From an uncultured Bacteroidota bacterium (GTDB lineage: Bacteria > Bacteroidota > Bacteroidia > Chitinophagales > Saprospiraceae): DNA of 36,658 nucleotides. The DNA is taken from assembly GCA_903933805.1 (NCBI GenBank), contig CAIZLM010000306.1, positions 1 to 36,658 on the forward strand, given 5' to 3'. Made by a program: the position numbers and the translations under genes. Shown here in pieces: positions 6,418-33,026 of the stretch (its first letter is position 1; every line of letters starts with the position of its first letter). Under the pieces are notes generated by a model that had not been told where the DNA came from, did no database searches, and saw nothing but the letters and a program-made list of their open reading frames with translations.

Positions 6418-6493
6418 GCAACGGGATTGGTGGCACGCGGTCTGTCCAAAAATGATTATTTTTTGTCTCAAAGGCGACCACCCACCCAATTAT
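6418..6493. mobile_element. Decayed 76-bp MITE at the mutS 3' end, with perfect 8-bp target duplication
   Basis: This is a diverged copy of the palindromic repeat family, in the same orientation as the 32864 copy. Shared blocks include GGTGGCACGC, TTTTTTGTCTCA and GCGACCAC. Its ends are worn (GCAACGGG and CCAATTAT in place of GTAACTGG and CCAGTTAC). It is flanked by the identical 8-mer GAAGATTT at 6410-6417 and 6494-6501, the expected target duplication. The mutS stop codon (6490-6492) lies inside the element. Confidence 0.75.
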
Positions 6494-9180
6494 GAAGATT
6501 TTTTTGCAATTTTGACGAGTTCATTCAGTTTCCAGAGGGCATCAATGGGTGTCATGGTATCCAGATCCATACCGAGCAAGGTTTCTTTGATATTGAGGGT
6601 GTAATCGTCCACATCAAAAATATGCAGTTGGAGGGGGGCTGCAATATTTTTCACCTTGTTGCGCATTTGTTTTTGGGTTGCAGTTTTTTGGTGGGATGTG
6701 TGATTGGATGTTGAAGCATCTTCGCTTTCGACCCATTTCGATTCAAGCGTTTTAAGGATTTCGTTGGCCCTTTCTACGATGCTTTGGGGCATACCAGCCA
6801 TTCGGGCAACGTGAATCCCAAATGAATGGTTGGAACCTCCTGCCACAAGTTTACGCAGAAAAACAACTTTTTGTCCCACTTCTTTGGTGCTCACGTGGAA
6901 ATTGTGGACCCTTTCATGGCTTTCGGCCAGTTCATTGAGTTCGTGGTAATGCGTGGCGAACAGCGTCTTGGGTCTTGCACGCCCGTTGTCGTGAAGGTAT
7001 TCCGTGAGGCTCCAGGCGATGCTGATACCGTCGTATGTGCTGGTACCGCGACCGATTTCATCCAGTAAAATGAGTGATCTATCGCTGATATTGTTCATAA
7101 TCAAGGCTGTTTCATTCATTTCAACCATGAAGGTACTTTCCCCACCACTGATGTTGTCACTGGCGCCGACACGGGTAAATACTTTATCTACCAGCCCAAT
7201 ACGGGCGCTCCCTGCCGGTACAAAACTACCCATTTGGGCCATCAGGGTAATCAGGGCTGTCTGTCGCAACAGCGCCGATTTTCCGGCCATGTTTGGACCG
7301 GTGATCAGGATAATTTGAACAGATTCGCTGTCCAGATACACATCATTTGGCACGAAGAATTCTCCGGTGGGCAGCTGTGTTTCAATGACAGGATGTCTGC
7401 CATCTCTGATATCAATCAAGGTACTGTCGTCCAACAGGGGGCGTGTATAGAGATTTTTTTGGGCTACTTTTGCGAAAGAAAGCAGACAGTCAAGTCGCGC
7501 GATGAGTTGGGCGTTGAGTTGAATGGGTTGTATATATTGTGCGATTTCCTCCACCAATTCCCGGAAAAGTCTTTCTTCTAGCACTTGAATTTTCTCTTCA
7601 GCGCCCAATATTTTAGCTTCCAGTATTTTGAGTTCATCCGTAATAAACCTTTCACCATTGGCAATCGTTTGTTTTCGGGTCCATTCTGGGGGTACCTGAT
7701 CTTTCCATTTGGATGTTACTTCGATGTAATAGCCAAATACATTGTTAAAAGCAACTTTGAGGCTGGTGATGCCAGTTCGTTCAATTTCACGGAGTTGTAT
7801 TTCGAGCAATAAATCGCGGCTGTTGCGAACGATGTGCCGAAGCTCATCCAATGCTGGATTGCAGCCATCGGCCATGGCATTTCCTTTTCTGATATCGGCT
7901 GGTGGTTCTGTTGCGATGTCGCGTTCGATGCGGGCACGTAGGGTGAGGCAAGGATTGAGGCCCTCTGCCAGTCGTGCTATCACGGCAGATAATTGGCTGT
8001 TGGCGTTTGCCTCTTCTTGGAGGAGCTGTTTTAGTTGTTCGGTGGCGAGCAATGCCTTACGCAGTTGCATGGTTTCGCGGGGACTAATTTTCCCCACCGA
8101 GGTTTTGGCCATCAGCCGCTCCAAGTCGCCGATATGTCGGATTTGAGGTTCTACCGCTGCTGCGAAAGCGGGTGTTTCCACCATCAATTGAACGGTATCA
8201 TGCCGGTCTTTAATTTGAACCAGGCTGGTCAAGGGCAGCAGTGTCCATTTTTTGAGCAGACGCCCCCCCATGGGGGAAACTGTTTTGTCCAGAATTTGAA
8301 GCAGAGAAACGCCATTTTCATGGGTGCTTGACACCAATTCTAAGTTTCGTATGGTAAACCGATCTAGCCAAACGAACTGTTCTGTTTGGAGTCGGCTGAG
8401 TGCGGTGATGTGGGACAGGCGGTTGTTTTCTGTGGCTGCCAGGTAGTATAAAGCTGCACCAGCAGCTGTTTGTGCCAGTTCCATTTCCTCTATTCCGAAG
8501 CCTTTTAGGCTGGCTGTTTGGAAATGCAGCAATAGTTTTTCACGGGCAAAATCACGAGTGAAAATCCAGTCTTCCAGCGTATTTAGGTAAAACTTATCCC
8601 CATAAATGGCCAAAAATTCCTTCAATCGACTTTTGGGCAATACCACTTCTGCCGGTTTAAAGCTTTGTAACAACTTGTCAATGGTACCACTATCGCCTTC
8701 CGACACAAAAAATTCACCGGTGGAAATATCGAGAAAAGAAAGTCCAAATTGGTCGTTTTTCCCATACGCCAGGGTTGCCAAAAAATTGTTGGCATTGTGG
8801 TCGAGCAAGGCGTCATCGGTAGTCACACCGGGTGTCACCACCTCTGTTACTGCTCTGCGCACCACTTTCCCAGGGGTAGGTTTTTCCATTTGCTCACAAA
8901 TGGCCACCCGATAGCCTGCTCTGACCAATCGCGGCAGATAAACATCCAAGGAATGGTAAGGGAAGCCGGCAAGTTCAATGTCAGACCCGCCGTTGTTTCG
9001 GCTGGTAAGTGTAATGCCAAGGGCTTTGCTTGCCTTGACAGCATCTGCTCCGAAGGTCTCGTAAAAATCACCTACGCGAAAAAGCAACACCGCATCAGGG
9101 TACTTGGTTTTTACCTGAATATATTGTTGCATCAGTGGTGTAGCGGCACCCACTATCCCATCTTTGTTTGTTTTTGCCAT
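6490..9180 (-). CDS. mutS: DNA mismatch repair ATPase MutS
   Basis: This 896-residue protein is the mismatch-recognition component of methyl-independent or methyl-directed repair. It has the N-terminal mismatch-binding motif F39-Y40-E41 within GDFYETFG, the connector, lever and clamp regions, the Walker A loop GPNMAGKS (628-635), the SGGESTFMVEM signature, Walker B LILLDEIGRGT, and the ATHYHEL switch. A C-terminal tail contains a LNELVKI helix. Length is in the usual range (about 850-900). The open frame extends to 9375, but MAKTNKDG at 9180 is the natural start; the extra upstream residues are not family-like and overlap the folP end. The stop codon is provided by an inserted MITE, apparently without changing protein length. 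Confidence 0.97.
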   Translation of the reverse strand: MAKTNKDGIVGAATPLMQQYIQVKTKYPDAVLLFRVGDFYETFGADAVKASKALGITLTSRNNGGSDIELAGFPYHSLDVYLPRLVRAGYRVAICEQMEKPTPGKVVRRAVTEVVTPGVTTDDALLDHNANNFLATLAYGKNDQFGLSFLDISTGEFFVSEGDSGTIDKLLQSFKPAEVVLPKSRLKEFLAIYGDKFYLNTLEDWIFTRDFAREKLLLHFQTASLKGFGIEEMELAQTAAGAALYYLAATENNRLSHITALSRLQTEQFVWLDRFTIRNLELVSSTHENGVSLLQILDKTVSPMGGRLLKKWTLLPLTSLVQIKDRHDTVQLMVETPAFAAAVEPQIRHIGDLERLMAKTSVGKISPRETMQLRKALLATEQLKQLLQEEANANSQLSAVIARLAEGLNPCLTLRARIERDIATEPPADIRKGNAMADGCNPALDELRHIVRNSRDLLLEIQLREIERTGITSLKVAFNNVFGYYIEVTSKWKDQVPPEWTRKQTIANGERFITDELKILEAKILGAEEKIQVLEERLFRELVEEIAQYIQPIQLNAQLIARLDCLLSFAKVAQKNLYTRPLLDDSTLIDIRDGRHPVIETQLPTGEFFVPNDVYLDSESVQIILITGPNMAGKSALLRQTALITLMAQMGSFVPAGSARIGLVDKVFTRVGASDNISGGESTFMVEMNETALIMNNISDRSLILLDEIGRGTSTYDGISIAWSLTEYLHDNGRARPKTLFATHYHELNELAESHERVHNFHVSTKEVGQKVVFLRKLVAGGSNHSFGIHVARMAGMPQSIVERANEILKTLESKWVESEDASTSNHTSHQKTATQKQMRNKVKNIAAPLQLHIFDVDDYTLNIKETLLGMDLDTMTPIDALWKLNELVKIAKKSS

Positions 9181-9209
9181 GGATTTTTTTGAGCGAATGA
9201 TCTTGGATA

Positions 9210-9217
9210 CAAATATA
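9210..9217 (-). promoter_or_regulatory. Candidate -7 box of the mutS promoter
   Basis: On the minus strand the 61-base folP-mutS gap contains TATATTTG, an exact TAnnTTTG match, 30 bases before the mutS ATG. That would give a leader of roughly 20-25 bases. No convincing TTG lies at standard spacing, so this is half-supported. Confidence 0.4.
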
Positions 9218-9241
9218 AGGAATAGCAAGCAGTTACCGCTA

Positions 9242-10117
9242 TCATCGTGTTGGCGATTCTGCAACAGACTTGGGTGGAACGTCTTCCAGTAATTTCCACA
9301 AAGCAATGACCTCCATCGCCTCCCGTACATCGTGCGCGCGAAGGATGGATGCGCCTTGTTGTAATGCAACGACATGCAACGCTGTTGTGCCGTTCAAGGC
9401 AGCAGATGGCGGTATGCCCAGTGGTTTACAGATCATTGATTTTCTTGAGACTCCAGCCAATACGGGCATTTGCAGTACGTTTTTGAACGTGTGTATGTTT
9501 CGTAACAGCGTAAAGTTGTGTTCCACCGTTTTACCAAACCCAAAACCGGGATCCAGTACAATGTCGTTGATACCAAGGGTTCGCAAAAATTTGATTTTTT
9601 GGATAAAAAAATCGAGTACTGTTTGCACCACATCTTGATAGACAGGGTTTTCCTGCATCATGTCAGGGGTGCCCTGCATGTGCATGAGGATGTAGGGTAC
9701 GTTTGGGGGGAATGCACCAACGGTGGCAATATCTTCAACTGTAGCGGGATGAGCAAGCGCGGAGATATCGTTCCAAATAGCCGCTCCTGCATTCAGCGCA
9801 GCCCTGGCAACACGGATACTTTCGGTATCAACGGATAGAATGGTCGCAGGAAAGTACTTCAGAATAAGTTCAACAGTAGGTATCACCCTACGCAATTCTG
9901 TTGTTTCATCGACCACTGTCGCACCGGGTCTGGAAGAAGCGCCACCGATATCCAACATGGTCGCCCCCTCCAACAGCATTTTTTCAGCTTGTTCGAGTAT
10001 AGCAGTTTCATTTACATATCTGCCACCATCAAAAAACGAGTCGGGTGTACAATTCAAAATACCCATCACAATGGGTGATGATAGATCAAGAAGCCGGCCT
10101 TTGCAGTTGATAGTCAA
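9242..10117 (-). CDS. folP: Dihydropteroate synthase
   Basis: This enzyme condenses 6-hydroxymethyl-dihydropterin diphosphate with p-aminobenzoate in folate synthesis and is the sulfonamide target. Family motifs run in order: MGILNCTPDSFFDGG, DIGGASSRPGA, SVDTES, WNDISA, HMQGTPDMMQ, DPGFGFGKT, GVSRKSMI and RAHDVREA. The usual NVTPDSF is NCTPDSF here. The start is unclear because no ATG precedes MGIL. A TTG at 10177 gives 311 residues but lies inside a MITE remnant. The TTG at 10117, giving a 291-residue product beginning (M)TINCKGRLLDL, fits the family start better and is chosen. The gene is 61 bases upstream of mutS and on the same strand. Confidence 0.93.
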   Translation of the reverse strand: MTINCKGRLLDLSSPIVMGILNCTPDSFFDGGRYVNETAILEQAEKMLLEGATMLDIGGASSRPGATVVDETTELRRVIPTVELILKYFPATILSVDTESIRVARAALNAGAAIWNDISALAHPATVEDIATVGAFPPNVPYILMHMQGTPDMMQENPVYQDVVQTVLDFFIQKIKFLRTLGINDIVLDPGFGFGKTVEHNFTLLRNIHTFKNVLQMPVLAGVSRKSMICKPLGIPPSAALNGTTALHVVALQQGASILRAHDVREAMEVIALWKLLEDVPPKSVAESPTR

Positions 10118-10134
10118 TTGATTATTTGTCTTTT

Positions 10135-10210
10135 GTAAAAAGGTTAGGTAGCGCGCCGTGTGATCAAAAAAGGCCAATTATCCGTCATACTTCGGAGGTT
10201 TTTTTGACCG
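10135..10210. mobile_element. Truncated long-form MITE upstream of folP
   Basis: From GTAAAAAGGTTAGGTAGC this follows the left half of the long copy at 32864. Shared blocks are GGTTAGGTAGC, AAAAAGGCC, then CATACTTCG and TTTTTTTGACCG at matching spacing. Similarity fades after 10210, so the right end and the second terminal repeat are lost or unrecognisable. A local GACC/GGTC hairpin around AAAAAA follows. No target duplication was found. The element occupies the folP-GNAT gap. Confidence 0.6.
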
Positions 10211-10238
10211 AAAAAAGGGTCGTTTTTAGCTTGCTGTG

Positions 10239-10748: not shown

Positions 10749-10772
10749 ATATTAATTTTTTATTTTATTCGT

Positions 10773-10806: not shown

Positions 10807-10835
10807 TTTTGTTTTAGTCGCTACCATTCAAGTGT

Positions 10836-12479: not shown

Positions 12480-12516
12480 GAGTTGAGCTAAGGCTAGTAG
12501 GTCCAAATGTACTCCA

Positions 12517-14267: not shown

Positions 14268-14300
14268 GTAACTGGTTAGCGTGCCACGCAACCCTTTCGA
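14268..14300. mobile_element. Mini-MITE remnant upstream of the M1 peptidase gene
   Basis: GTAACTGGTTAGCGTG (from 14268) is an intact family end, in the orientation of the 18373 copy. It is joined directly to CCACGCAACC, which resembles the opposite end with the centre deleted. The two halves form a tight hairpin (GGTT-A-GCGTG against CCACGC-AACC). The outermost right-end bases are lost. It lies 17 bases before the peptidase ATG. Confidence 0.6.
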
Positions 14301-14317
14301 ACAAATGTATATTTAAC

Positions 14318-16732: not shown

Positions 16733-17275
16733 TTAAAAACTCCAAGATCCGAGGTGTTTCAGGAATAATTTTGTCAGGTTTTCGGCGTCTGAAATGGCTC
16801 GGTGGTGCTGGCCTGTAAAAAGTATATCCTCCATTTCAATCACTTTTTTTAGACCTGGACTGCGGCTCATGCGCTTCATCAATCGGTAATGTTCTTTTAA
16901 ATTGACGTGATGCTCCGTCCAATCAACCTCCAATCGGTGCATTCGACAGTCGCTGGCAAACATTTTTCGATCGAAACCACCCCATGAGCACAATAGATAG
17001 TCTTCTTCCTGTATGCGCCCCCAATCCCAAAATTCCTCGATGACCTCGGGGAATTTTTTCGCCCTATTTACATCAAGTTGTTCTATACCAGTAAGTTGTC
17101 GGCAAAACGGTGAAAGCGTTGGGTGTGCTTGGGGCTTTACAAAGCGGTTAAACTTACCCCTTATTTCACCAAAATGGTTGATTTTATAAGCGCCTATTTC
17201 AATGGTTTCTTGTACATAATCCGGCGGCGGATTTTCCCAACAAGTAGCTTCGAGGTCGTAAACGATATAATTCAT
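16733..17275 (-). CDS. DEDDh 3'-5' exonuclease (KapD/ERI1-like)
   Basis: This 180-residue cytoplasmic protein carries all five residues of a DEDDh exonuclease: Asp7 and Glu9 in YDLEAT, Asp102 in WGGFDRKMF, and His158 and Asp163 in HHRAISDAEN. The surrounding LTGIEQ segment also fits. Related proteins (ERI1, KapD, RNase T-like) trim RNA or DNA 3' ends; the target here is unknown. It is the downstream partner of the glycosyltransferase gene. The ancestral junction appears to have been only one base long before a MITE inserted between them. Confidence 0.9.
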   Translation of the reverse strand: MNYIVYDLEATCWENPPPDYVQETIEIGAYKINHFGEIRGKFNRFVKPQAHPTLSPFCRQLTGIEQLDVNRAKKFPEVIEEFWDWGRIQEEDYLLCSWGGFDRKMFASDCRMHRLEVDWTEHHVNLKEHYRLMKRMSRSPGLKKVIEMEDILFTGQHHRAISDAENLTKLFLKHLGSWSF

Positions 17276-17299
17276 GTTAGCGCAATCCTACTCTTTTCG

Positions 17300-17341
17300 G
17301 TAACTGTTTAGCGTGGTACAGCGCGCCACCTAACCAGTTAC
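17300..17341. mobile_element. 42-bp mini-MITE at the glycosyltransferase 3' end, with near-perfect target duplication
   Basis: Ends are GTAACTGTTTAG (17300-17311) and CTAACCAGTTAC (17330-17341), separated by only 18 bases, an internally deleted family member. Direct repeats TCTTTTCG (17292-17299) and TCTTTTCA (17342-17349) flank it and match at 7 of 8 positions. On the minus strand the element's first 12 bases read Val-Thr-Gly-stop and now end the glycosyltransferase. Confidence 0.85.
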
Positions 17342-18247: not shown

Positions 18248-18350
18248 GTTCAGTTGTTACATTACAATGGTCTTCGTCCGCAAATGTCCAGTAATTAAGC
18301 GCTGCAAAACAGAAATTTGCATTTTATTACAGAAAAAAAAACAGTTGGAC

Positions 18351-18358
18351 TACATTTG
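18351..18358 (+). promoter_or_regulatory. Candidate -7 box upstream of the HerA-like gene
   Basis: TACATTTG matches TAnnTTTG exactly, but no TTG lies at standard spacing. If used, transcription would start near 18365 and the 78-bp MITE at 18373-18450 would lie in the 5' leader as a long hairpin. Confidence 0.3.
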
Positions 18359-18372
18359 ACCCGTTAAAACAT

Positions 18373-18450
18373 GTAACTGGTTAGCGTGGTCGTGTCTGAG
18401 ACAAAAAATGGACTTTTTTGGGCCAGGCAGCGTGCCACCTAACCAGTTAC
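18373..18450. mobile_element. 78-bp MITE with perfect 12-bp terminal inverted repeats (reference copy)
   Basis: Ends are GTAACTGGTTAG and CTAACCAGTTAC, perfectly complementary over 12 bases. Pairing continues inward with interruptions (GTGG/CCAC, GTCTG/CAGGC) to a central CAAAAAA/TTTTTTG stem with a TGGAC loop, so the whole element can fold. The immediate flanks TAAAACAT (18365-18372) and TAAAATAT (18451-18458) match at 7 of 8 positions. It is non-coding and lies 32 bases before the HerA-like gene. Confidence 0.88.
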
Positions 18451-18482
18451 TAAAATATTACGTTCACTGAAAAACTGCCGAG

Positions 18483-20039: not shown

Positions 20040-20087
20040 CGCGTGTTGGTTTTTTGGACGCTGTGGCCCCCAAAAAACCAACATGCG
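20040..20087. terminator. Bidirectional terminator hairpin between the HerA-like and CotH genes
   Basis: TGTTGGTTTTTTGG (20044-20057) and CCAAAAAACCAACA (20070-20083) form a perfect 14-bp stem, extended by a G-T pair and three more pairs to 18 bp, with a 12-base loop. It fills the 55-base gap between two convergent stops and reads almost the same from both sides. Confidence 0.8.
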
Positions 20088-20094
20088 CTTTGGC

Positions 20095-22398: not shown

Positions 22399-22699
22399 AC
22401 AATTGTTTGTGTCGAATTGTCAAATAAAAAAGTGCTAATTTGGCTCGGTAAAGATAAAAGGGGAAAGGATAATCATCGAAAAAAACGGTGATTGTTGCCT
22501 TGGGGTTGCGTATTCAAGGAAAAAATATCCTGCATCTAGGGGCAATTTTGACAACATCTGACACATTATTAGCGTGTTTTTGCCACAGATGGAAAATAGA
22601 TAGATAACATTCCACGGTAATGTTCCCCGTTTTGTATTATCTCAAACTATCTTTGTGGGTAAATTCGAGTAAAACACTTCCAATGATATGCTAAAAGAC
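22399..22699. promoter_or_regulatory. Divergent CotH/parA control region with a parS-like palindrome
   Basis: This 301-base gap holds no gene. A 19-base imperfect palindrome, AACATTCCACGGTAATGTT (22606-22624), has 6-bp perfect arms. Its core TTCCACG shares bases with the general parS consensus, but the symmetry differs, so assignment is tentative. An exact -7 match TATCTTTG (22648-22655) precedes parA by 44 bases. A near match (TATCTTTA on the minus strand, about 22450) could serve the CotH gene. Confidence 0.35.
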
Positions 22700-23467
22700 A
22701 TGGGCAAAGTAATTACGATTGCCAATCAAAAAGGTGGTGTCGGCAAGACAACTACCGCAATTAATCTAGCCGCTTCATTGGCTATTTTGGAGAAAAAAGT
22801 GTTGTTAATTGATGCTGATCCGCAAGCTAACGCCTCCTCGGGGGTTGGTCACTTGGAAAGTACGGAGTTGATGAGTCTTTATGACTGTCTCGTACACGGA
22901 GCCGATCCACGGCAAGGAATCATCCAGACTGAAACGCCCAATCTTTGGCTGCTTCCTTCCAACATTGACCTTGTTGGAGCTGAGTTGGAACTGGTAAATA
23001 TGCCCAATCGAGAATATGTTTTGCGGGGAGTTGTGGGTGAATTGCGCAATGAATACGATTATATTTTTATAGACTGCCTTCCATCACTGGGACTTATCAC
23101 GGTAAATGCCCTTGTTGCTGCGGACACTGTACTAATCCCGGTTCAATGTGAAATGTTTTCTTTTGAGGGATTGGCAAAATTGAAAAACACCATCGATCTG
23201 ATCCGTAAAGGCTTTAATCCGAACCTGCAGGTGGAGGGGCTGCTTATTTCCATGTACGACAGCCGGTTGCGATTGGCCAATGCTATTGTGGAAGAAGTCC
23301 GCAGCAGTGCGACAGATTATGTGTTTGAAACCATCATCCACCGCAACAGCCGTGTAGCAGAGGCGCCAATGTCGCACACCCCTGTGGCACTTTATGATGT
23401 TACGAGCAAAGGCGCTACCAATTTCTTCAATCTTGCAGAAGAATTTTTGCGGAGAAACCCCAACTGA
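22700..23467 (+). CDS. parA: Chromosome partitioning ATPase ParA (Soj-like)
   Basis: This 255-residue ATPase forms the dynamic partner of ParB in chromosome segregation. The deviant Walker A loop KGGVGKTT starts at Lys11, with the signature lysine just before GGVGKT. Walker A' is DADPQANAS and Walker B is IFIDCLPSLG. Length and the absence of an N-terminal DNA-binding extension mark the short chromosomal (type Ib-like) form. The open frame starts at 22688, but the family begins MGKVITIANQKGG, so the ATG at 22700 is preferred. parB follows 124 bases downstream on the same strand. Confidence 0.95.
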   Translation: MGKVITIANQKGGVGKTTTAINLAASLAILEKKVLLIDADPQANASSGVGHLESTELMSLYDCLVHGADPRQGIIQTETPNLWLLPSNIDLVGAELELVNMPNREYVLRGVVGELRNEYDYIFIDCLPSLGLITVNALVAADTVLIPVQCEMFSFEGLAKLKNTIDLIRKGFNPNLQVEGLLISMYDSRLRLANAIVEEVRSSATDYVFETIIHRNSRVAEAPMSHTPVALYDVTSKGATNFFNLAEEFLRRNPN

Positions 23468-23496
23468 TTGTAGCTGCGTTTTTTGTGTTTTTTGGT

Positions 23497-23550
23497 TTGG
23501 AATGGCCCAGTTCCGGTCGTTTCAGCTAAACCCTTGAGTGGTCATTCCAA
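23497..23550. repeat. Inverted repeat in the parA-parB gap
   Basis: TTGGAATGGCC (23497-23507) and GGTCATTCCAA (23540-23550) pair at 10 of 11 positions around a 32-base loop. It follows parA and precedes parB by 41 bases. It could be an attenuating structure or a protein site; no T-tract follows. Confidence 0.35.
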
Positions 23551-23591
23551 TAAACCAACAAACCCTTCAACCAATAAATATCCGATTCAAC

Positions 23592-24494
23592 ATGGCAAAA
23601 TCAAAATTCGATACGGGAGGCATAAAAGCTTTGCTTGGTAATCCCCGGCAATTGGAAAAAGCCGTTCAAGAAAATCCGCAGGAGTTGGTGCGGGAATTGG
23701 CAACCATGGTTGCCATGATTCCTATTGAGCAGATCAAATCAAACAGTGGACAGCCCCGGAAGGCATTTGCCGGGGAGGCGCTGGAGGAACTGGCATCCAG
23801 TATCAGGGCGCATGGCATTATACAGCCGATAACCGTGCGTCGTCTTCACGACAAAGAATACCAGATTATTTCTGGAGAGCGCCGTTTTAGGGCCAGCCAA
23901 ATTGCCGGATTGGCAGAAATGCCTGCCTATATCCGCCTTGCCAACGACCAGGAATTGTTGGAAATGGCCCTGATTGAAAATATCCAGCGGGAAGATCTGA
24001 ATGCTTGGGAGATTGCTGTTTCATACGGCCGGTTAGCAGAAGAGTTCAAACTCACCCACGAAAATCTGTCCGACCGTGTTGGCAAACAACGCAGCACTAT
24101 TTCGAACTACCTGAGGTTGCTTAAATTTGAAGGAGACCCGGATATCAAACAAGGACTGATAGACAACAAAATCAGCATGGGCCATGCCCGTGCGTTGGCG
24201 GGGGTCGATGACTACGCAACCCGCAACTCTCTTTATCAACAGATCGTGGATCAGGATCTGTCTGTTCGCGCCATCGAAGTACTGATCGCCAGTTATCAGG
24301 AAAGCAGAAAACCCAAGGAAGAAAAAAAAGAAGCCAACTTACCACAGCACCTCCGCGAAATTCAAGATAAGTTCAATGCCTTTTTTGGCACAAAAACCCA
24401 ACTCAAACGCGACGAGAAAGGCAAAGGACAATTGCTGATCAAGTTTTCAAACGATGCTGATTTAAACAGGCTCATTGATGCCATTGATCGCTGA
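23592..24494 (+). CDS. parB: Chromosome partitioning protein ParB
   Basis: This 300-residue protein is the centromere-binding CTPase of the ParABS system. An N-terminal FDTGGIKALLGN segment is the ParA-contacting end typical of chromosomal ParB. The nuclease-like ParB/Srx domain has IKSNSGQPRKAF and the CTP-binding ISGERRFRASQ motif (GERR at 95-98), then IENIQREDLN. A helix-turn-helix region (VGKQRSTISNYLRLLKF, ISMGHARAL) binds parS, and a C-terminal dimerisation segment follows a Lys-rich linker. The open frame begins at 23538, but MAKSKF at 23592 fits the family. The usual Bacteroidota downstream genes are not seen; a metalloprotease gene starts 25 bases after the stop. Confidence 0.95.
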   Translation: MAKSKFDTGGIKALLGNPRQLEKAVQENPQELVRELATMVAMIPIEQIKSNSGQPRKAFAGEALEELASSIRAHGIIQPITVRRLHDKEYQIISGERRFRASQIAGLAEMPAYIRLANDQELLEMALIENIQREDLNAWEIAVSYGRLAEEFKLTHENLSDRVGKQRSTISNYLRLLKFEGDPDIKQGLIDNKISMGHARALAGVDDYATRNSLYQQIVDQDLSVRAIEVLIASYQESRKPKEEKKEANLPQHLREIQDKFNAFFGTKTQLKRDEKGKGQLLIKFSNDADLNRLIDAIDR

Positions 24495-24519
24495 TTTTTT
24501 CGGCCAAAATCTTTTGTTT

Positions 24520-26055
24520 ATGCTTCGATTTTTGTTTTTAATTACTTGTATATCAATTACTCATCTTGGTTTTTCCCAAGATCCACTGAAGGAAAATTTA
24601 GCCCCATGTGGCACTCCTGCCGGCATATCACCCTGGCTTAGGTCGTACGCTGCCAATCCAGGCAGTCAAATGGCCGTGCGAACCGAAGACACCCTTTGGG
24701 TCGCTTTACAGGTACATTTACTGGCAAAAAACAATGCTTCAGGACGTTTTCCTTACGACAAGGTCTTGGACGCATTTTGTCGTTTGAATGCCGATTACGC
24801 TCCTTCCAATATACAATTTTACCTCTACAACCCATTTAACCTGATCAACAGTACTGAATGGTATGCACATGCTACCATTCCTCAAGGTATTGACATGATG
24901 TTGACGAACAATGTGGCAGGCGCTCTAAATACCTACTTTGTGTCTGATCCTGCCGGTAATTGTGGCTATAATATTCCTTACGGAGGCGTTGCGCTTGGCC
25001 ACGGCTGCGCGGCAGCATCTGACCATACCTGGGCGCACGAAGCGGGGCATGCCTTATCGCTCCCACACCCATTTATTGGATGGGAAGGCAAGACATACAA
25101 TTACAACACACAGACACCCTCCGTTTTAACGTACGACTACACCTATTTCCACGACAGTGTGGAAATACAAGTACCGGCGCCACTGGATACCGCCTTGGTA
25201 GAATTGGTGGATGGCTCCAATTGCAGTATTGCGGCTGACCTAATTTGCGACTCAAAGGCGGATTATTTGAGTTACCGTTGGAATTGCAATAGCCAAAACC
25301 AGAGCAGTGTAAAACAAAAAGACCCCAATGGGATCGATTTTTATTCCGATGGCACCTTGTTTATGTCGTATGCCGACGATGCCTGCCAGTCAAGGTTTAC
25401 ACCAGAAGAGATTGGAGCAATGCGATTCAACCTCATGACGGAGAAATCCAGCTGGGTTGCACCAGCGGTTCCAGTTTTGCCCGTTGAAGGTCTCGCGGTT
25501 GCCAAGGAGCCTCTGCCAGATCATCCAGAGCCGGTAACCGGGGTTAAACTGGTTTGGGCATCTGTTCCAAATGCCAGTCATTATTTGGTTCAAGCTTCTC
25601 GGTTTTCCAATTTTGCCGTGCGTGAGGTGGACGTCATCACCTCGGACACCAGTATTTTGACTGGACAATTACTCCTGAATAAAACCTACCATTGGCGGGT
25701 AAAGGCCTTCAATCTTTGGCACGCCTGTACTGATTTTAACACGCCTTCCACTTTTTTAACCGTTCCCTTGTCGGCAGCGCACGTTCCCGATTCAGAGGGT
25801 TGGCGGTGTTATCCTTCTTTGTTGTCTGCCGGGCAGTCCTTAAAAATGGAGATCCCTGAGCGTTGGCTCGGAAAAGAAGCTGTTTTGCGCATCCTTGACG
25901 TAGCAGGAAGCATCGTATGGTCAACAGATATGAAACTTGATCACGTGGATACCACCCTAAAACTTCCAAGTGACACATGGGCGGGTGGGCTATACCATTT
26001 GGTGCTAAGCAGCCCCAGTGGAACAAAACATCAGTCTATCGTGTTTATGAAATAA
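24520..26055 (+). CDS. Secreted zinc metalloprotease, pappalysin/M43-like, with T9SS C-terminal domain (first of tandem pair)
   Basis: This 511-residue protein has a signal peptide (MLRFLFLITCISITHLGFSQ) and a metzincin-type zinc site HEAGHALSLPH with His173, Glu174, His177 and His183. Next are GWEGKTYNY, then DLICDSKADYLSYRWNC, then a Met-turn region LFMSYADDACQSRFT (Met282). This order resembles M43 cytophagalysins, which cleave proteins outside the cell. A fibronectin-III-like segment (TGVKLVWASVPNASHYLVQ) and a type-A sorting-like C-terminus follow. The open frame begins at 24475, overlapping parB; the ATG at 24520 gives the signal peptide. It is a close paralogue of the next gene. Confidence 0.85.
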   Translation: MLRFLFLITCISITHLGFSQDPLKENLAPCGTPAGISPWLRSYAANPGSQMAVRTEDTLWVALQVHLLAKNNASGRFPYDKVLDAFCRLNADYAPSNIQFYLYNPFNLINSTEWYAHATIPQGIDMMLTNNVAGALNTYFVSDPAGNCGYNIPYGGVALGHGCAAASDHTWAHEAGHALSLPHPFIGWEGKTYNYNTQTPSVLTYDYTYFHDSVEIQVPAPLDTALVELVDGSNCSIAADLICDSKADYLSYRWNCNSQNQSSVKQKDPNGIDFYSDGTLFMSYADDACQSRFTPEEIGAMRFNLMTEKSSWVAPAVPVLPVEGLAVAKEPLPDHPEPVTGVKLVWASVPNASHYLVQASRFSNFAVREVDVITSDTSILTGQLLLNKTYHWRVKAFNLWHACTDFNTPSTFLTVPLSAAHVPDSEGWRCYPSLLSAGQSLKMEIPERWLGKEAVLRILDVAGSIVWSTDMKLDHVDTTLKLPSDTWAGGLYHLVLSSPSGTKHQSIVFMK

Positions 26056-26180
26056 TATTTTCCGCATCAATCATCAAACACAAACAAATTGTCGCCATGT
26101 GGCTTTCCTGTAAATGATGATGACAAAAAATGAAAACTAAAACAGACATTTGCGCTACAATTTAACTTTCTGTATTTTAG

Positions 26181-27677
26181 ATGAAATATACCTTGCGTTT
26201 TCTGATTCCTGCCCTATTGTTGTTGAGTAATACCGCTTTTTCTCAGCAAAATTCCGATAATTTTTGCGGCACCAGGGGTATTACCAAATGGTTTGAGTGG
26301 TACTGCCAAAATCGAGATGTATTGGCTCAGGATCGTGGTAATGACTCCACTTGGATTTATGTGCCCATGACCATCCAAATTACCGGCACCGACAGCGGTA
26401 CGGAACATTATAATCTGGAGCAAGCCATCATTGCTGTCAACAACATGAACCAACAATATATTCCGGCAAAAATTCGCTTTTACCTCATGCCGGGGGATCC
26501 TTTTCGTTATTTGGATAAAACATCTTGGCATGACCACGATTGGACCGGTGGAGCCGACTTGATCGACAACAATCGGCTCCCGGATCGTCTGAACGCCTTT
26601 GTCGTAAAAAATCCTGCGGGCAATTGTGGCTACTCTTGGATGGATGCCATTGTTTTGGGAAAAAACTGTTCCGGAGCATCCAATACCACTTGGGCACATG
26701 AGGCTGGTCACCACTTCTCCCTGCCACACCCATTTTTTGGCTGGGAAGGAACCACTTGGAATTATGCCACGCCAGCGCCTGCTGAAATCGGTGGCCGTCC
26801 CGTTGAAACAACAGATGGAACCAACTGCTATAATTCAGGTGATTTTTTCTGCGATACCCGTCCCGATTACCTCAATTACCGCTGGTCTTGCGACCAGAAC
26901 CATGAAAGCACGACCGTACAACACGATCCAAATGGCGTAGAATTCCGTTCTGATGCTACCCTTTTCATGGGCTATGCCTTGGATGCCTGTGCCAACCGAT
27001 TTTCGCCGGAGCAGATTATGGCCATGCGAGACAACATCATGTTCGATCACAATGAATACATTCAAATTACCGACCCCTTGCAGGAAATATCCGATGGCGA
27101 TCCGGTACAATTGGTGAGCCCCATCGATACGGCCTTTGTACAATACAACAATGTGACTTTTTCCTGGAATCCGGTGCCCAACGCATCACTCTATACCGTA
27201 GAAGTTGCTTTGCACGAAAACAACTTACCGCGATTTATTTGGGAAACCGTGTACAACACCACGACGTTGACCATAACCAAAAATATTCCCAACAATAAAT
27301 TATTGTACTGGCGTGTTCGCCCATACAGCGAATGGGACCTAAGCAAACAACTGGCGCCACAACAAATTGGTGTTTTCAGAACTAAAAATTACGCTGCTAC
27401 GAACGATCTGGAACGCGTAGTATTGGCTGACTTGTCACCCAACCCAGTGATCTCCGGAGTAGTGGCACAATTACACCTTTCCGCCGACGATAATATGGAT
27501 GCATCGCTCCGGATTACGGACGCTGCTGGTCGTATGTGTTCCATCGAAACCCTTCGCATTCAGCCTGGCGACAACCTAATTGACATTCCAACAGACAAAC
27601 TCGCTTCCGGACTTTATTTTGTTACCCTTCAAAATGAAAAAGGCAATATCATCAAACGCCTAGCGGTAACAGAATAA
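26181..27677 (+). CDS. Secreted zinc metalloprotease, pappalysin/M43-like, with T9SS C-terminal domain (second of tandem pair)
   Basis: This 498-residue paralogue of the preceding protease has a signal peptide (to TAFSQ) and its zinc motif HEAGHHFSLPH at the same residue numbers (His173-His183). It shares NPAGNCGY, TWAHEAGH, SLPHPFFGWEG, FFCDTRPDYLNYRWSC and the Met-turn LFMGYALDACANRFS. A fibronectin-like segment (NVTFSWNPVPNASLYTVEV) precedes a clear type-A T9SS domain (LADLSPNPVISG, then LASGLYFVTL). Substrate is unknown. A strong hairpin follows 63 bases after the stop. The pair probably arose by tandem duplication; the C-terminal thirds differ more than the catalytic halves. Confidence 0.87.
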   Translation: MKYTLRFLIPALLLLSNTAFSQQNSDNFCGTRGITKWFEWYCQNRDVLAQDRGNDSTWIYVPMTIQITGTDSGTEHYNLEQAIIAVNNMNQQYIPAKIRFYLMPGDPFRYLDKTSWHDHDWTGGADLIDNNRLPDRLNAFVVKNPAGNCGYSWMDAIVLGKNCSGASNTTWAHEAGHHFSLPHPFFGWEGTTWNYATPAPAEIGGRPVETTDGTNCYNSGDFFCDTRPDYLNYRWSCDQNHESTTVQHDPNGVEFRSDATLFMGYALDACANRFSPEQIMAMRDNIMFDHNEYIQITDPLQEISDGDPVQLVSPIDTAFVQYNNVTFSWNPVPNASLYTVEVALHENNLPRFIWETVYNTTTLTITKNIPNNKLLYWRVRPYSEWDLSKQLAPQQIGVFRTKNYAATNDLERVVLADLSPNPVISGVVAQLHLSADDNMDASLRITDAAGRMCSIETLRIQPGDNLIDIPTDKLASGLYFVTLQNEKGNIIKRLAVTE

Positions 27678-27740
27678 TTGGGCGAATAAGAAAGACTATT
27701 GCGACTGGTTGCTTTTTTGTCTTACAAATAATGGTCATAC

Positions 27741-27782
27741 GTTCGACTTCATTTTTACCTTTGGGTAGAAATGAAGTCGAAC
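27741..27782 (+). terminator. Very strong hairpin after the second metalloprotease
   Basis: GTTCGACTTCATTT (27741-27754) and AAATGAAGTCGAAC (27769-27782) form a perfect 14-bp stem. It continues through a G-T pair and TACC/GGTA to a TTTG tetraloop, making a near-continuous 19-bp hairpin. TTTTAT follows soon after. It probably terminates the protease pair; its symmetry also allows use as a binding site upstream of the flippase gene. Confidence 0.7.
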
Positions 27783-27818
27783 CGTTTTATAGCTTCATGA
27801 AACCTCAACCTCAATCAC

Positions 27819-29300
27819 ATGGGTGTCATTCGTCGGCAAAGTCTTAAACATGTTTCTGTCAGCCTGATAGGATTGTTGGTTGGCGCAGCCAGTACTTTTC
27901 TCGTGTACCCACATGTACGGGAGGGTTTCGGGTTGATCCAGGTACTCATGCAAGTAGGGTTGTTGGGCCTTCCGGTGATGTCTTTGGGGGCCAATACAGT
28001 GGCCATTCGTTTTTTTCCAAAATTTCAGGACAAGTTGATGGGGCACCACGGCTTTTTACCATTGTTGTTGATGTTGTGCGGGCTTGGCTTTGCCCTCAGT
28101 GGCTTGATCGCATTTTTGTTTTGGGAGCAATACATGCAACGGGTTGAACACAATGCGCCTTTGATCCGGGAGTACCTGTGGATAGCCTTTCCGATGGGTT
28201 TTTTCAGTGTGGTGAACGCCGTTTTGTCGATGTATTCCGCCAATTTTAAACGCATCGTAGTACCCACTATTTTAATCGATTTCTCTCAAAAACTGGTCTT
28301 GCCTTCCCTGCTGATGGGCGTTTGGCAACAATGGATTACGTTGGAAATTGCTGTTTGGGGCATGCTGTTACATACCTTTTGCGTAACCATTGGTATGATC
28401 CTATACTTGCGGAGTTTGGGAGAATGGCATTGGAAACCAGACTGGGCTTTTCTAAATCCTAGTTTGAAGAAAGAGTTGATGGGCTTCATCAGTTTCTGGG
28501 TACTGGGCGGATTTGCACTGACTATTGCGACAAAATCGGATGTTTTTATGGTGGGATCCTTGAGTACTGTAAAAGCTGCGGGTACTTTTGTCATTGCGGC
28601 AGCGTTGGCAGCCATCATTGAGCTACCCATTAAGAGCCTTTATACTGCCAGTGTTTCTTCTGTGGCCAGTCACCTGGCAGAAGGAAATTTCAAGGCTTTG
28701 GGAAAACTATACCAGCGTGTATCTATAAACTTATTGGTGGGCGGCTTGATGCTATTTGGTGGTTTATGGGTTTCTATTGACAGTATATTCGAACTTTTCC
28801 CCAAAAGTCAGTCGGGAGAGATGGCCTTTGGCATCTGGGTGTTTTTTTTTATTGGTCTTTCCAAGATGGTTGACATGAGTACTGGACTCAACAACTACAT
28901 GATATTTTATTCTCAGCATTACCGGTATGCTTTGATTTCTTTGCTCATTGCTGCAACGCTTACCGTGTCACTTAATATTCTGTTGATCCCCAAAATTGGC
29001 ATGATTGGTGGTGCTATTTCAACCCTCATTGCGGTTGTTTTTTACAACAGCTTCAACGTTTGGTTGGTATGGTTGAAATTCAGGCTATTCCCTTTTACCA
29101 AAGAAACGATCATGGCATTGGGAGTAGCTTTGATGTGTTTTGTCGCAGCCAGTTTTATACCACATACTGGGTATTATTTGTTGGATATTTTGCTCCGAGG
29201 TGGTGTTTTCGCTGCTTTTTTTGGTATTTGTGTCATAAAATTGGAAATTTCTACTGATATAAATACCTTGGCAAAAATGATTTGGCAAAAGTATTTTTGA
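27819..29300 (+). CDS. Polysaccharide flippase-like membrane protein (MOP/Wzx-like)
   Basis: This 493-residue protein is a polytopic membrane protein with about 12-14 hydrophobic segments. It follows the MOP superfamily pattern of oligosaccharide flippases: an N-terminal VSLIGLLVGAASTFLVYPH helix, a GLLGLPVMSLGANTVAIRFFP segment, and a central GFISFWVLGGFALTIATKSD helix pair containing the charged SDVFMVG motif. Members move lipid-linked glycans across the inner membrane. The cargo is unknown; no glycan cluster surrounds it, although a glycosyltransferase lies 10 kb away. The ATG at 27819 gives a complete first helix. Confidence 0.85.
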   Translation: MGVIRRQSLKHVSVSLIGLLVGAASTFLVYPHVREGFGLIQVLMQVGLLGLPVMSLGANTVAIRFFPKFQDKLMGHHGFLPLLLMLCGLGFALSGLIAFLFWEQYMQRVEHNAPLIREYLWIAFPMGFFSVVNAVLSMYSANFKRIVVPTILIDFSQKLVLPSLLMGVWQQWITLEIAVWGMLLHTFCVTIGMILYLRSLGEWHWKPDWAFLNPSLKKELMGFISFWVLGGFALTIATKSDVFMVGSLSTVKAAGTFVIAAALAAIIELPIKSLYTASVSSVASHLAEGNFKALGKLYQRVSINLLVGGLMLFGGLWVSIDSIFELFPKSQSGEMAFGIWVFFFIGLSKMVDMSTGLNNYMIFYSQHYRYALISLLIAATLTVSLNILLIPKIGMIGGAISTLIAVVFYNSFNVWLVWLKFRLFPFTKETIMALGVALMCFVAASFIPHTGYYLLDILLRGGVFAAFFGICVIKLEISTDINTLAKMIWQKYF

Positions 29301-29312
29301 CAAACCATTTTT

Positions 29313-29390
29313 GTAACTTTTTGGGTGGTCATGTATGAGACAAAAAGATGGTCCTTTTTGGGCTATACAGCGTGCCACCTAACCAGTTAC
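29313..29390. mobile_element. 78-bp MITE between the flippase and amidohydrolase genes
   Basis: This copy has the same length and orientation as the 18373 copy. Its right end GCCACCTAACCAGTTAC is intact; its left end is eroded (GTAACTTTTTGGGTGG). The interior retains GAGACAAAAA and CTTTTTGGGC. The flanks share ATTTTT on both sides (29307-29312 and 29391-29396), a less exact duplication than other copies. It starts 12 bases after the flippase stop. Confidence 0.8.
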
Positions 29391-29451
29391 ATTTTTTCAC
29401 TCAAGTCGCTGATATACAGCGTACCAATGCGTCACAAAAACATTCTTTCGC

Positions 29452-32400
29452 ATGAACAGGCTATCTATTTTATTGGTGCTTTCAATTGTATCTGCTACGC
29501 TCCTGCCGGCACAAGACAAAAAAAAATGGGATGTGAACAACCCAAACACAACCATACCGTATCAACCGTTAGAATTTAGCACCAATGAGGGCACTTGGAT
29601 GTGTTTGGACGTATCTCCCGACGGCAAAACCATTGTCTTTGATTTACTGGGTGACTTGTACACCATGCCAATTAGTGGCGGCAACGCAACCTGTATTCGT
29701 ACCGGACTGGCCTGGGAGGTACAACCCCGGTTTTCACCCGATGGCCTAAAAATATTGTTTACCAGTGACGCCGGCGGTGGTGATAACAGTTGGGTAATGA
29801 ATGTGGATGGCAGCAACCCCCAACAGGTAACCAAAGAGTCTTTTCGCTTAATTAACAATGCAACCTGGATTGACAATCAATATATTGTCGCACGGAAGCA
29901 CTTCACCAGCCAACGCTCACTGGGTGCTGGCGAACTTTGGATGTACCATGTTTCGGGTGGTGAAGGGGTGCAACTTACCAAACGAAAAAACGACCAACAA
30001 GACGTCAATGAACCTTCTGTATCCAGCGATGGTCGCTATATTTATTTCAGTGAGGACATGTACGGCGGCGGTTTTTTCCAGTACAATAAAAACCCCAACA
30101 CCCAGATTTTTGCCGTTAGGCGCTATGACCGTGTGGAAGGTAAAATAGAAGAAGTGACCGGCGGATCCGGTGGAGCCTGCCGTCCCCAGATCAGCCGAGA
30201 TGGGAAATGGCTTGCTTTCGTGCGCAGAATTGGCGTAAAGACTGTCCTGATGGTCCAAAACGTCACAACCGGAGCCGAGTATCCCCTGTATGATGGGTTG
30301 GACAAAGATCAGCAAGAGGCTTGGACCATATTTGGGTGTTATCCCGGATATGCTTGGATGCCGGATGGCAAGGGCTTGGTCATTTGGGCAGGCGGAAAAA
30401 TCAACTTGATTAATTTTGCCTTCAATGCATCAACGAATGGCGAAATCAGTGTCAACGTTGTTCCATCTGAGATTCCTTTTAACTGCAGGGTAAACACCAA
30501 ACTGGCAGAAACACAACGCCCCGTACAAAAGGTGTTCGAAGAGTCGTTTACGGCACATGCATTGAGGCAGGTTACCACATCACCAGATGAAAAAATGGTG
30601 GTTTTCAACAGTACAGGCTACTTGTACCAGAAAATATTGCCCAACGGAAAACCTGAAAGATTGACAAAAAACACCGGTGTTTTTGAATTTGAACCTACCT
30701 TTTCCAAGGATGGCGCGTCCTTGGTGTTTGTCACTTGGAATGACGAAAATATGGGGCAAATTCAAACACTCAATCTGAGGAGCCAACAGCTGCAAACTTT
30801 AAAATTGCCACAAGGCATTTACCGAACGCCCTGTTTTTCCGACGACGGAAAAACAATTGTTTTCCGAAAACAGGCTGGAGATGATGAACTCGGCTTTGTA
30901 AATTGTAACAAACCTGGGATTTACCGTGCCAATATCGATGGGAGCAATTTGGAGTACATCACTGAAACAGGTGAAAATCCACATTTTTCTCCCGATGGCA
31001 CCAGAATCTATGTGGCCACGGGCGGTAATATTTTTGGGGCCCTAGACAAATCACTTCGATCATTCGATCTCCATGGCAACGATGAAAAGGTACTCGCCAA
31101 AAGCCAGTACGCAAACCAATGGACGCCCTCCCCGAATGGCAAATGGCTGGCTTTTACCGAGTTGCATAAAGCGTATGTCTGTGCAATGCCCATGCAAGGC
31201 CAAACCTTAGCCGTGAGTGGCGATATGGGCTCTGTTCCGGTTACCCTCGTCAACCGAGATGCCGGATACAACCTGCATTGGTCGGCAGACTCTAAAAAAT
31301 TGCATTATACCCTTGGCGATGAGTATTTTACGATAGACCTGAACGAACGATTCAAATTCCTGCCAGGCGCCCCGGATTCACTACCGGCACTCGATACGAC
31401 AGGGTTGAAAATAGGCCTTCAGTTGATGACCGATATTCCGGAAGGTACCATCGTTTTTGAAAATGCACGCATCATTACGAGTGAAGGCGATCAGGTAATT
31501 GAAAAAGGTGCTGTTGTTGTTGAACGCAACAAAATCACTTTTGTTGGCAGTATGGGCGCGTTTCGAGCTGCTCATTTTCAGTTGGATAAGTCCAAAATTA
31601 TTGACTGTGCAGGCAAAACCATTATGCCCGGAATCGTGGATGTTCACGCTCACAGTGGTAATTTTCGGTATGGACTTAGTCCACAAAAACAATGGGAATA
31701 CTACGCCAATCTGGCATTTGGCGTTACCACCATGCACGACCCTTCCACCAACTCCGAAATGGCTTTTAGCCACGCTGAGTTGATCCGCGCGGGAAGAATG
31801 GTAGGCCCTAGGTTGTTTAGTACTGGCACCATCATTTATGGCGCCGATGGTGATTTTAAAGCGCCAATTAATTCGCTGGATGATGCCCGTTCTGCCCTGC
31901 GTCGAACAAAAGCCTGGGGGGCTTTTTCAGTTAAGAGTTACAACCAACCACGAAGGGAGCAACGGCAGCAAGTGATGGCAGCGGCCAAAGAGCTGGGCAT
32001 GCAAGTGGTACCCGAAGGCGGTTCTTTTTTTGCACACAACATGACCCAAATTGTGGACGGTCATACCTCCGTGGAGCACAATATACCCGTCGCACCATTG
32101 TACAACGATGTGATTACGTTGTGGCGCAATACTAAAACACACAATACCCCAACCCTGATTGTCAGCTACGGAAGCCTGAACGGAGAGTATTACTGGTACC
32201 AAAACACCGATGTTTGGGCAAACAAACGCTTGTTACAATACATTCCAAACCATATTGTGGTTGAAAGAAGTCGTCACATCACCAAAGCGCCTGAAGAAGA
32301 ATATCAAAATGGGCATATTTTGGTTTCAAAAACTTGCCGTAAACTTCAAGATGCAGGCGTTGACATCAACCTCGGTTCCCATGGCCAATTGCAGGGATTG

Positions 32401-32763
32401 GGCGCCCACTGGGAACTTTGGATGCTCCAGCAAGGTGGTATGAGCAACTTACAAGCGCTGCGTTGTGCCACCATCAATGGTGCGAAGAGCCTGGGTATGG
32501 ACGCTGAAATCGGTTCTATAAAAGTTGGAAAACTTGCAGACCTTGTTGTCTTGAATGCCAACCCACTCGAAAACATACGCAATTCTGAGACGATCCAGTT
32601 CGTTATGGTGAATGGGCGATTGTTTGACGCTTCAACCATGCATGAAACTGGTAATTACAACAAGAAAAGAGGTAAATTCTGGTTTGAAATGCCCGGAGGC
32701 AATACGGGTGCAGCTGGCGTCGGGCATTCATGCTCGGAAACCAAGTGTGTTTGTGGCCATTGA
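29452..32763 (+). CDS. Secreted TolB-like beta-propeller/amidohydrolase fusion protein
   Basis: This 1103-residue protein has a signal peptide (MNRLSILLVLSIVSATLLPAQ). About the first 600 residues form WD40/PD40 (TolB-like) propeller blades with repeated SPDGK or FSxDG turns (for example VSPDGKTIVF, RFSPDGLKILF, SRDGKWLAFV). An amidohydrolase domain follows: VENARIITSEGD, the metal motif VDVHAHSGN (His732, His734), and histidines in GHTSVEHNI (871, 876). The usual metal Asp region reads LGSHGQLQGLGAH (His977) instead of GTD, as in other propeller-linked members I recall. The last 15 residues are rich in Cys and His (HSCSETKCVCGH). Substrate is unknown; dipeptides or cyclic amides are possible. 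Confidence 0.88.
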   Translation: MNRLSILLVLSIVSATLLPAQDKKKWDVNNPNTTIPYQPLEFSTNEGTWMCLDVSPDGKTIVFDLLGDLYTMPISGGNATCIRTGLAWEVQPRFSPDGLKILFTSDAGGGDNSWVMNVDGSNPQQVTKESFRLINNATWIDNQYIVARKHFTSQRSLGAGELWMYHVSGGEGVQLTKRKNDQQDVNEPSVSSDGRYIYFSEDMYGGGFFQYNKNPNTQIFAVRRYDRVEGKIEEVTGGSGGACRPQISRDGKWLAFVRRIGVKTVLMVQNVTTGAEYPLYDGLDKDQQEAWTIFGCYPGYAWMPDGKGLVIWAGGKINLINFAFNASTNGEISVNVVPSEIPFNCRVNTKLAETQRPVQKVFEESFTAHALRQVTTSPDEKMVVFNSTGYLYQKILPNGKPERLTKNTGVFEFEPTFSKDGASLVFVTWNDENMGQIQTLNLRSQQLQTLKLPQGIYRTPCFSDDGKTIVFRKQAGDDELGFVNCNKPGIYRANIDGSNLEYITETGENPHFSPDGTRIYVATGGNIFGALDKSLRSFDLHGNDEKVLAKSQYANQWTPSPNGKWLAFTELHKAYVCAMPMQGQTLAVSGDMGSVPVTLVNRDAGYNLHWSADSKKLHYTLGDEYFTIDLNERFKFLPGAPDSLPALDTTGLKIGLQLMTDIPEGTIVFENARIITSEGDQVIEKGAVVVERNKITFVGSMGAFRAAHFQLDKSKIIDCAGKTIMPGIVDVHAHSGNFRYGLSPQKQWEYYANLAFGVTTMHDPSTNSEMAFSHAELIRAGRMVGPRLFSTGTIIYGADGDFKAPINSLDDARSALRRTKAWGAFSVKSYNQPRREQRQQVMAAAKELGMQVVPEGGSFFAHNMTQIVDGHTSVEHNIPVAPLYNDVITLWRNTKTHNTPTLIVSYGSLNGEYYWYQNTDVWANKRLLQYIPNHIVVERSRHITKAPEEEYQNGHILVSKTCRKLQDAGVDINLGSHGQLQGLGAHWELWMLQQGGMSNLQALRCATINGAKSLGMDAEIGSIKVGKLADLVVLNANPLENIRNSETIQFVMVNGRLFDASTMHETGNYNKKRGKFWFEMPGGNTGAAGVGHSCSETKCVCGH

Positions 32764-32775
32764 TATAGCAAATGT

Positions 32776-32853
32776 TTAACTGGTTAGGTGGCAAACGGTC
32801 TGGCCTACAAAGCCCTGTTTTTTTTTCCTAGGCACGACCACTTAACCAGTTTC
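32776..32853. mobile_element. 78-bp MITE, first of a tandem pair
   Basis: This is exactly 78 bp, in the opposite orientation to the 18373 copy. The ends are TTAACTGGTTAGGTGGC and CGACCACTTAACCAGTTTC, so the terminal GTAA/TTAC is worn. The interior keeps GTCTGGCC and a run of nine T. No target duplication is apparent. It lies 12 bases after the amidohydrolase stop and 10 bases before the next copy. Confidence 0.8.
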
Positions 32854-32863
32854 GATAAAAAAA

Positions 32864-33026
32864 GTAACTGGTTAGGTAGCACGCTGTCTGGCCCAAAAAG
32901 GCCCATTTTTCGCCATACTTCGCAGATTTTTTTGACCGTAGCGCTGCTACGGAATGCAAAAATCCGCTTCGTCTGGCAAAAAATGATTGCTTTTTTGTCT
33001 CAGACGCGACCACGCTAACCAGTTAC
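32864..33026. mobile_element. 163-bp long-form MITE, second of a tandem pair
   Basis: It has perfect 12-bp ends (GTAACTGGTTAG, CTAACCAGTTAC) and the same subterminal bases as the 78-bp copies. About 85 extra bases in the middle form their own imperfect palindrome centred on CCGTAGC-GCT-GCTACGG (about 32936-32952). Flanks TAAAAAAA (32856-32863) and AAAAAAAA (33027-33034) match at 7 of 8, but are low-complexity. It lies 34 bases before the HlyD-type gene. Confidence 0.85.

Follow-up and report, generated by a model that had tools for sequence, protein, structure and literature searches.

A previously undescribed, unusually abundant family of miniature elements with IS66/ISBst12-type ends in a Saprospiraceae genome

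We describe here a family of short palindromic repeats lying mostly between the genes of contig CAIZLM010000306.1, from an uncultured Bacteroidota bacterium of the Saprospiraceae (assembly GCA_903933805.1). The window, meaning the whole stretch of 36,658 nucleotides that was analysed, is contig C306 of an assembly of 336 contigs and 4,206,178 bases that is 97% complete. A sequence-only reading had claimed the same repeat at eight places and assigned it to miniature inverted-repeat transposable elements (MITEs) of IS66 type. Each of the eight places does hold the whole repeat or a piece of it, the pieces being a one-ended remnant at 14268 and a left-half fragment at 10135.

The eight sites in the window

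The copies lie among open reading frames (ORFs) as follows, with the match of their flanks given as target-site duplication (TSD) where one is recognised.

6418..6493, + strand: decayed 76-bp MITE at the stop codon of mutS (ORF 6490-9375, - strand); flanks GAAGATTT, 8/8
6410..6417, no strand: left target duplication GAAGATTT of that copy, repeated at 6494-6501
10135..10212, + strand: left-half fragment of a copy of the 163-bp class; profile match 10140-10212, corresponding to model positions 5-77 of 163; without a right end
14268..14283, - strand: one-ended remnant, with the 12-bp end exact and four further bases of one arm; missed by the profile at E<=0.01
17300..17341, - strand: 42-bp copy at the 3' end of ORF 17330-18247 (- strand); TSD 7/8
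18373..18450, - strand: full 78-bp copy upstream of the gene of a HerA-like ATPase; TSD TAAAACAT/TAAAATAT, 7/8
29313..29390, - strand: 78-bp copy right after a stop codon (ORF end 29300); flank match 4/8
32776..32853, + strand: decayed 78-bp copy right after a stop codon (ORF end 32763); flank match 3/8
32864..33026, + strand: full 163-bp copy, 10 bp from the copy at 32776; flanks TAAAAAAA/AAAAAAAA, 7/8

A profile built from full-length copies recovered seven of these eight sites at E<=0.01 (6419-6486, 10140-10212, 17316-17341, 18373-18450, 29313-29390, 32777-32851 and 32864-33026) and gave no match in the control, a reversed 380-kb sample. The earlier counts held as well: three copies measure exactly 78 bp (18373, 29313 and 32776), and the flanking repeats at 6418, 17300, 18373 and 32864 match at 8, 7, 7 and 7 of 8 positions, the last being a run of A. 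Folding better than chance was found in four of the five copies folded (z -6.59, -4.87, -4.14 and -3.76) and not in the decayed copy at 6418, (z -0.63).

Copy number, anatomy and surroundings of the family

The family had been expected to be very abundant genome-wide, and this proved right. The 12-bp end GTAACTGGTTAG, allowing at most one mismatch, occurs 1,152 times in the genome (589 + 563), against 31 times (15 + 16) for the reversed pattern. In a sample of 380,385 bases, comprising the window and 20 stretches of its genome and mildly biased in that contigs were taken from match lists together with three IS66 contigs, the profile found 96 copies at the same threshold and none after reversal. 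MITE copies make up 2.6% of this sample, and their number in the genome is estimated at 1,062 when scaled by length and at 928 when scaled by end counts. Distances between paired ends cluster near 78 and 163 bp, and majority consensus sequences were derived for both classes (22 and 24 copies, respectively). On comparison of the two, the shorter form resembles the longer one minus its inner hairpin. The arms inside the 12-bp ends differ, with GTGGCACGCTG on one side and CGTGGTCGCG on the other, and the 163-bp consensus folds at -74.2 kcal/mol (z -8.95). The shortness of both classes, the terminal inverted repeats (TIRs, 12 bp) and the lack of a transposase gene are features of a MITE.

With ORF positions taken from a simple ORF caller, 74 of the 96 sampled copies lie wholly between ORFs, nine contain a stop codon, seven a start and six are internal to an ORF (shorter than 115 aa in four cases, about 260 and 370 aa in the other two); random points fall inside ORFs in 87% of cases. 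Measured to the nearest ORF ends, a distance of at most 26 bp was found for 40 of 90 3' ends vs 14 of 76 5' ends, and direct reading of the GTAACTGGTTAG end reveals stop codons in two of its three frames. Such proximity and such stops might suggest that a once-mobile family is now kept for a host role, for example ending or insulating transcription, which is compatible with mobilisation by a transposase and which we consider unlikely. Of the 29 terminator-like sites listed for 17000-36658, not one falls in a copy, so that a terminator role was rejected, and a search of Rfam over the window gave no match above the gathering score. Moreover, the core arm GGTTAGGTGGCACGCTGTCTGG (at most two mismatches) occurs in one of 396 genomes drawn from the order (a draw that left out the relatives G025 and G014), namely 446 times in its own genome, and is absent from the other 395. 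The intergenic bias would also be expected from selection against gene hits together with A+T-rich targets.

The repeats insert with an 8-bp target duplication

Termini beginning with GTAA and 8-bp target duplications are the rule for the IS66 family. When the flanks of 50 end pairs were compared at lengths of 2-15, the sole peak was at 8 (mean match 0.67; 0.48 at length 7 and 0.44 at length 9). A flank match of 7-8 of 8 positions was seen in 25 of the 53 full-length copies (1.4% with mispaired flanks), and one of 6 or more in 32 (4.8% with mispaired flanks). The quality of the TSD rises with the preservation of the copy (Spearman 0.40, p 0.003): of the 24 copies with an identity of at least 93%, 19 reach a match of 6 or more, compared with 4 of the 13 below 85%. 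A and T account for 163 of the 200 bases in the 25 TSDs with 7-8 matches, the sample as a whole having 53% A+T.

The copy at 17300 allows an empty-site comparison. The protein of ORF 17330-18247 (- strand) ends in ...LKRVTG, and its last codons, GTA ACT GGT TAG (V-T-G-stop), are the MITE's own end; once the MITE is taken away together with one of the 8-bp repeats, the joined flanks encode ...LLLWYFLKRVGLR and a stop, which is the conserved C-terminus (...GLR). Nine of 41 congeners were fetched for this site, picked from among the matches listed: the orthologue ends in GLR in eight and in NVR in one, the RNase T-like gene next to it is the same as in the window, and none of the nine has the MITE at the orthologous locus. 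For the copy at 17300, transposition into the end of a gene is demonstrable. At the mutS stop codon the MITE is likewise absent from all 29 congener loci read; this case is the weaker of the two, because the insertion leaves the protein unchanged, the joined and filled alleles encoding the same product. Relatives bearing the repeat at every site had been named in advance as evidence against mobility, and the two sites tested, the only ones with an empty-site comparison, contradict it (0/9 and 0/29). Because of the 8-bp flank duplications and the empty-site comparison, we conclude that the repeats are transposed elements which inserted with an 8-bp duplication.

Palindromic, abundant repeats with strong RNA hairpins, most of them wholly intergenic, might instead be intergenic palindromes of the repetitive extragenic palindrome or bacterial interspersed mosaic element kind (REP/BIME), spread by a REP-associated tyrosine transposase (RAYT, Y1) and not MITEs of a DDE transposon. 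To our knowledge, REPs make no target duplication. The 8-bp duplications and above all the precise empty site strongly disfavour this origin, and identical ends are found on IS66-type elements, as described below; we regard it as extremely improbable.

Copies also occur next to one another. In the whole genome, outward-facing exact ends 0-30 bp apart were found at five places, and the gap is exactly 8 bp in all five:

C27:29752-29783
C37:1296-1327
C76:48707-48738
C109:23822-23853
C259:122-153

The sample holds five full-length pairs less than 60 bp apart, with gaps of 8, 7, 8, 8 and 10 bp, two of them also among the genome-wide five. In the C27 and C37 pairs the gap agrees with the sequence to the right of the second copy at 8/8 and 7/8 and is that copy's TSD, and in the pair at L056 it does not agree (2/8). 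In these small numbers, and with recombination as an alternative, the flush pairs suggest insertion targeted to the edge of a copy already in place.

IS66-type elements with the same ends, spread and significance

An exact-end survey of 120 genomes (the host's own and 119 relatives) found GTAACTGGTTAG in 27 of them, with 597 occurrences in the own genome, 35 in G014, 12 in G020, 10 in G025, 9 in G016, 6 in G030 and at most 3 in the others. Inward-facing end pairs at transposon distance in relatives are single-ORF IS66 elements, with both ends exact:

G042: 1,554 bp, TSD 8/8
G009: 3,130 bp, TSD 8/8
G025: 1,050 bp, TSD 6/8

Each of the three carries PF03050 and PF20042 (TnpC with DUF6444). NCBIfam also places them in the IS66 family, the internally deleted G025 copy scoring below its cut-off. 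TnpC without tnpA or tnpB is seen in the G042 element, whose 1,554 bp have room for one long ORF only. The own genome contains four TnpC pieces that are 56-58% identical to the G042 protein. Two of its relics retain ends: on C104, a 370-bp element with an exact left end, one mismatch in the right end and the TnpC N-terminus inside, and on C332, a TnpC piece followed by an exact end. Four other single-ORF IS66 kinds with readable ends begin with GTAA, three of them with GTAACT. Elsewhere in the genus, the starts of such elements are GTAACTATTTAG, GTAACTGTTTAG and GTAAAAACTTAG; the ends of loci L114, L115 and L116 could not be read. TSDs were found at L110 (8/8, genome G007) and L113 (6/8). Contigs of G020 and G016 break off at GTAACTGGTTAG-type ends or a short way inside them (about 127 bp in G020), as for a multi-copy element. 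The G007 element itself (L110 and L111; 475 aa, ends GTAAAAACTTAG) is present in several near-identical copies and, judged from these and the TSD of L110, looks recently active.

The 8-bp TSDs, the empty site and the same-end transposons, IS66 by both Pfam and NCBIfam, thus support the IS66 attribution. The partner is of another kind than the TnpA/TnpB/TnpC element that the sequence-only reading had expected, and belongs to the single-ORF (ISBst12-type) branch. ISDge4, a member of the ISBst12 group, is reported in PMC12898284 to transpose; it has ends GTGACTACTCAGCA/GTAACTGCTCAGCA, a single ORF and an 8-bp repeat, and we therefore name the mobiliser an ISBst12-type IS66 transposase. The GTAA... 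ends and 8-bp duplication agree with the rule for the family, which the same source backs for one member, ISDge4.

The genome has three IS66 transposase loci above the Pfam cut-off, on C216, C186 and C180, the one on C186 being a fragment. The classical IS66 element on C216 (about 611-3029, L044; tnpB and tnpC by Pfam) was rejected as partner, as it ends in GTAAGCCTCCCAC and not in GTAACTGGTTAG; with the boundary moved one base inward from the tested position, both its flanks look like CACCGGGA. The single-ORF element C180:3857-5297 (L046; ends GTAACTATCCAGCCGCC, an open 464-aa TnpC, flanks 3/8) was also rejected, its ends GTAACTATCCAG differing from those of the MITE, and is a possible, unmatched helper candidate.

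Other DDE families, namely IS256, ISL3 and IS1595, also make 8-bp duplications, and the MITEs might have been moved by one of them, the 12-bp match to IS66 being a coincidence or the result of cross-use. The interiors of the MITEs are unlike the IS66-type element and the genome is without an intact partner, as this would have it. Against it stand three IS66-type elements that are identical to the MITE end at 12/12 positions on both sides, two relics in the own genome with such identity on one side, and the variants of GTAACTGGTTAG that start other single-ORF IS66 elements, and we judge it highly unlikely.

Mobilisation by an ISBst12-type transposase has to face several opposing points. The genome has two IS66 elements whose TnpC is full-length, and the ends of both differ from GTAACTGGTTAG; no intact autonomous element with exactly GTAACTGGTTAG ends was found in this 97% complete genome. 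The absence of any IS66-like element with these ends had also been named as counter-evidence; strictly, decayed relics are present, while an intact one was not found. All three sister copies read are broken, by a frame shift near the C-terminus (G042), by IS1-type insertions (G009) and by an internal deletion (G025), and for this reason an autonomous element with the ends of the MITE is only inferred. The C104 relic is without a TSD (2/8), as are some single-ORF IS66 loci (C180 3/8, L111 3/8, L112 2/8) and two G025 copies of the MITE (3/8 and 2/8), and 21 of the 53 full-length copies match at 5 or fewer of 8 flanking positions. The likeness between MITE and IS is limited to the terminal 12-16 bases; because only these are common to both, descent of the MITE from the IS by internal deletion is not shown.

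In spite of these points, the 8-bp duplication on insertion, the IS66-type elements with the very same ends and the relics of such elements in the own genome are observed, and we consider it very probable that the MITEs were mobilised by a single-gene ISBst12-type IS66 transposase and expanded to about a thousand copies. The transposase would recognise the 12-bp end GTAACTGGTTAG, insertion would go into A+T-rich, mostly intergenic targets and leave an 8-bp duplication, and the palindromic interior would require no coding capacity. The family would then have expanded in the host species, the helper now being decayed or unassembled in its genome. We infer the role of the transposase, the sufficiency of 12 bp and a copy-in mechanism.

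Beyond the host genome, a copy in G025 and the 78-bp copy of the window share 90% identity, against 73% for herA, which reflects either horizontal spread or a binning error; in congeners the best herA matches are at 71-77% DNA identity. G014 has related elements of 161-162 bp, with a TSD of 8/8 in all three that were read. Other MITEs of congeners, 55-273 bp long, share the ends and have interiors mostly unrelated to the window family:

L075 1262-1435: same 12-bp ends, TSD 8/8
L076 2324-2497: same 12-bp ends, TSD 7/8
L079 1473-1745: same 12-bp ends, TSD 8/8
L080 1484-1544: same 12-bp ends, TSD 8/8
L089 1890-1944 (G014): near-identical ends, 55 bp, TSD 8/8

It is conceivable, at less than even confidence, that the IS66 transposase takes almost any short hairpin with 12-bp tips, so that unrelated MITEs recur in the genus, down to about 42-60 bp, and that it prefers flush insertion, giving the pairs of two copies separated by 8 bp. 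The exact 24-base core was found in two GTDB records, a search from which the window's own genome was possibly omitted: CANJPT010000133.1, a metagenome-assembled genome (MAG) of Lewinellaceae, and CAJAVU010000005.1, a MAG labelled Flavobacteriales. In the latter (L144) a MITE starts at 306; the window genome matches it best at 94-98% identity across some 136-150 bp, and it adjoins an 86-base stretch matching the IS66 relic contig C186. The record gives no same-species allele for comparison, as among the matches listed only that one 86-base stretch outside the MITE fits the own genome; horizontal transfer or misbinning is possible. Elsewhere in the window, genes for ParA and ParB adjoin each other at 22688-24494.

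Elements of the ISBst12 group (ISDge4, PMC12898284) resemble the IS elements with MITE ends in their GTAACT start, 8-bp duplication, single ORF and IS66 transposase family, whereas the MITEs are gene-less and match them in the terminal 12-16 bases only. MITECca01 of Cardinium (PMC9769881) is likewise a lineage-specific, mostly intergenic MITE burst; it derives from another IS family, IS982, with an intact parental IS in the Cardinium genome, and has fewer copies (169, or 3.5% of the chromosome). MITEPye1 (IS1182-type, PMC11578231) shares a long RNA hairpin, IS-like TIRs and intergenic position, and differs in its IS family and its 1-3 copies. The ERIC elements of enterobacteria, abundant, intergenic and classed as MITEs in a review (PMC10969869), were compared by copy number only; their 711 copies in Photorhabdus are the largest single-family count in the review section. 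The literature searched yielded no IS66-derived MITE, which is no proof of absence from print.

To conclude, MITEs as such are known, and this family is a previously undescribed and unusually abundant one with IS66/ISBst12-type ends, its copy number lying above any single-family figure found in the parts of the cited literature available (at most 711). It offers a candidate minimal transposition substrate, with 12-bp ends and a length of 42-163 bp, and such elements can rewrite the C-terminus of a protein by supplying their own stop codon. The family represents a burst at the level of the species, with a helper that seems lost or hidden, and it connects a very large expansion of MITEs in a bacterium with the IS66 family, which is poorly characterised.

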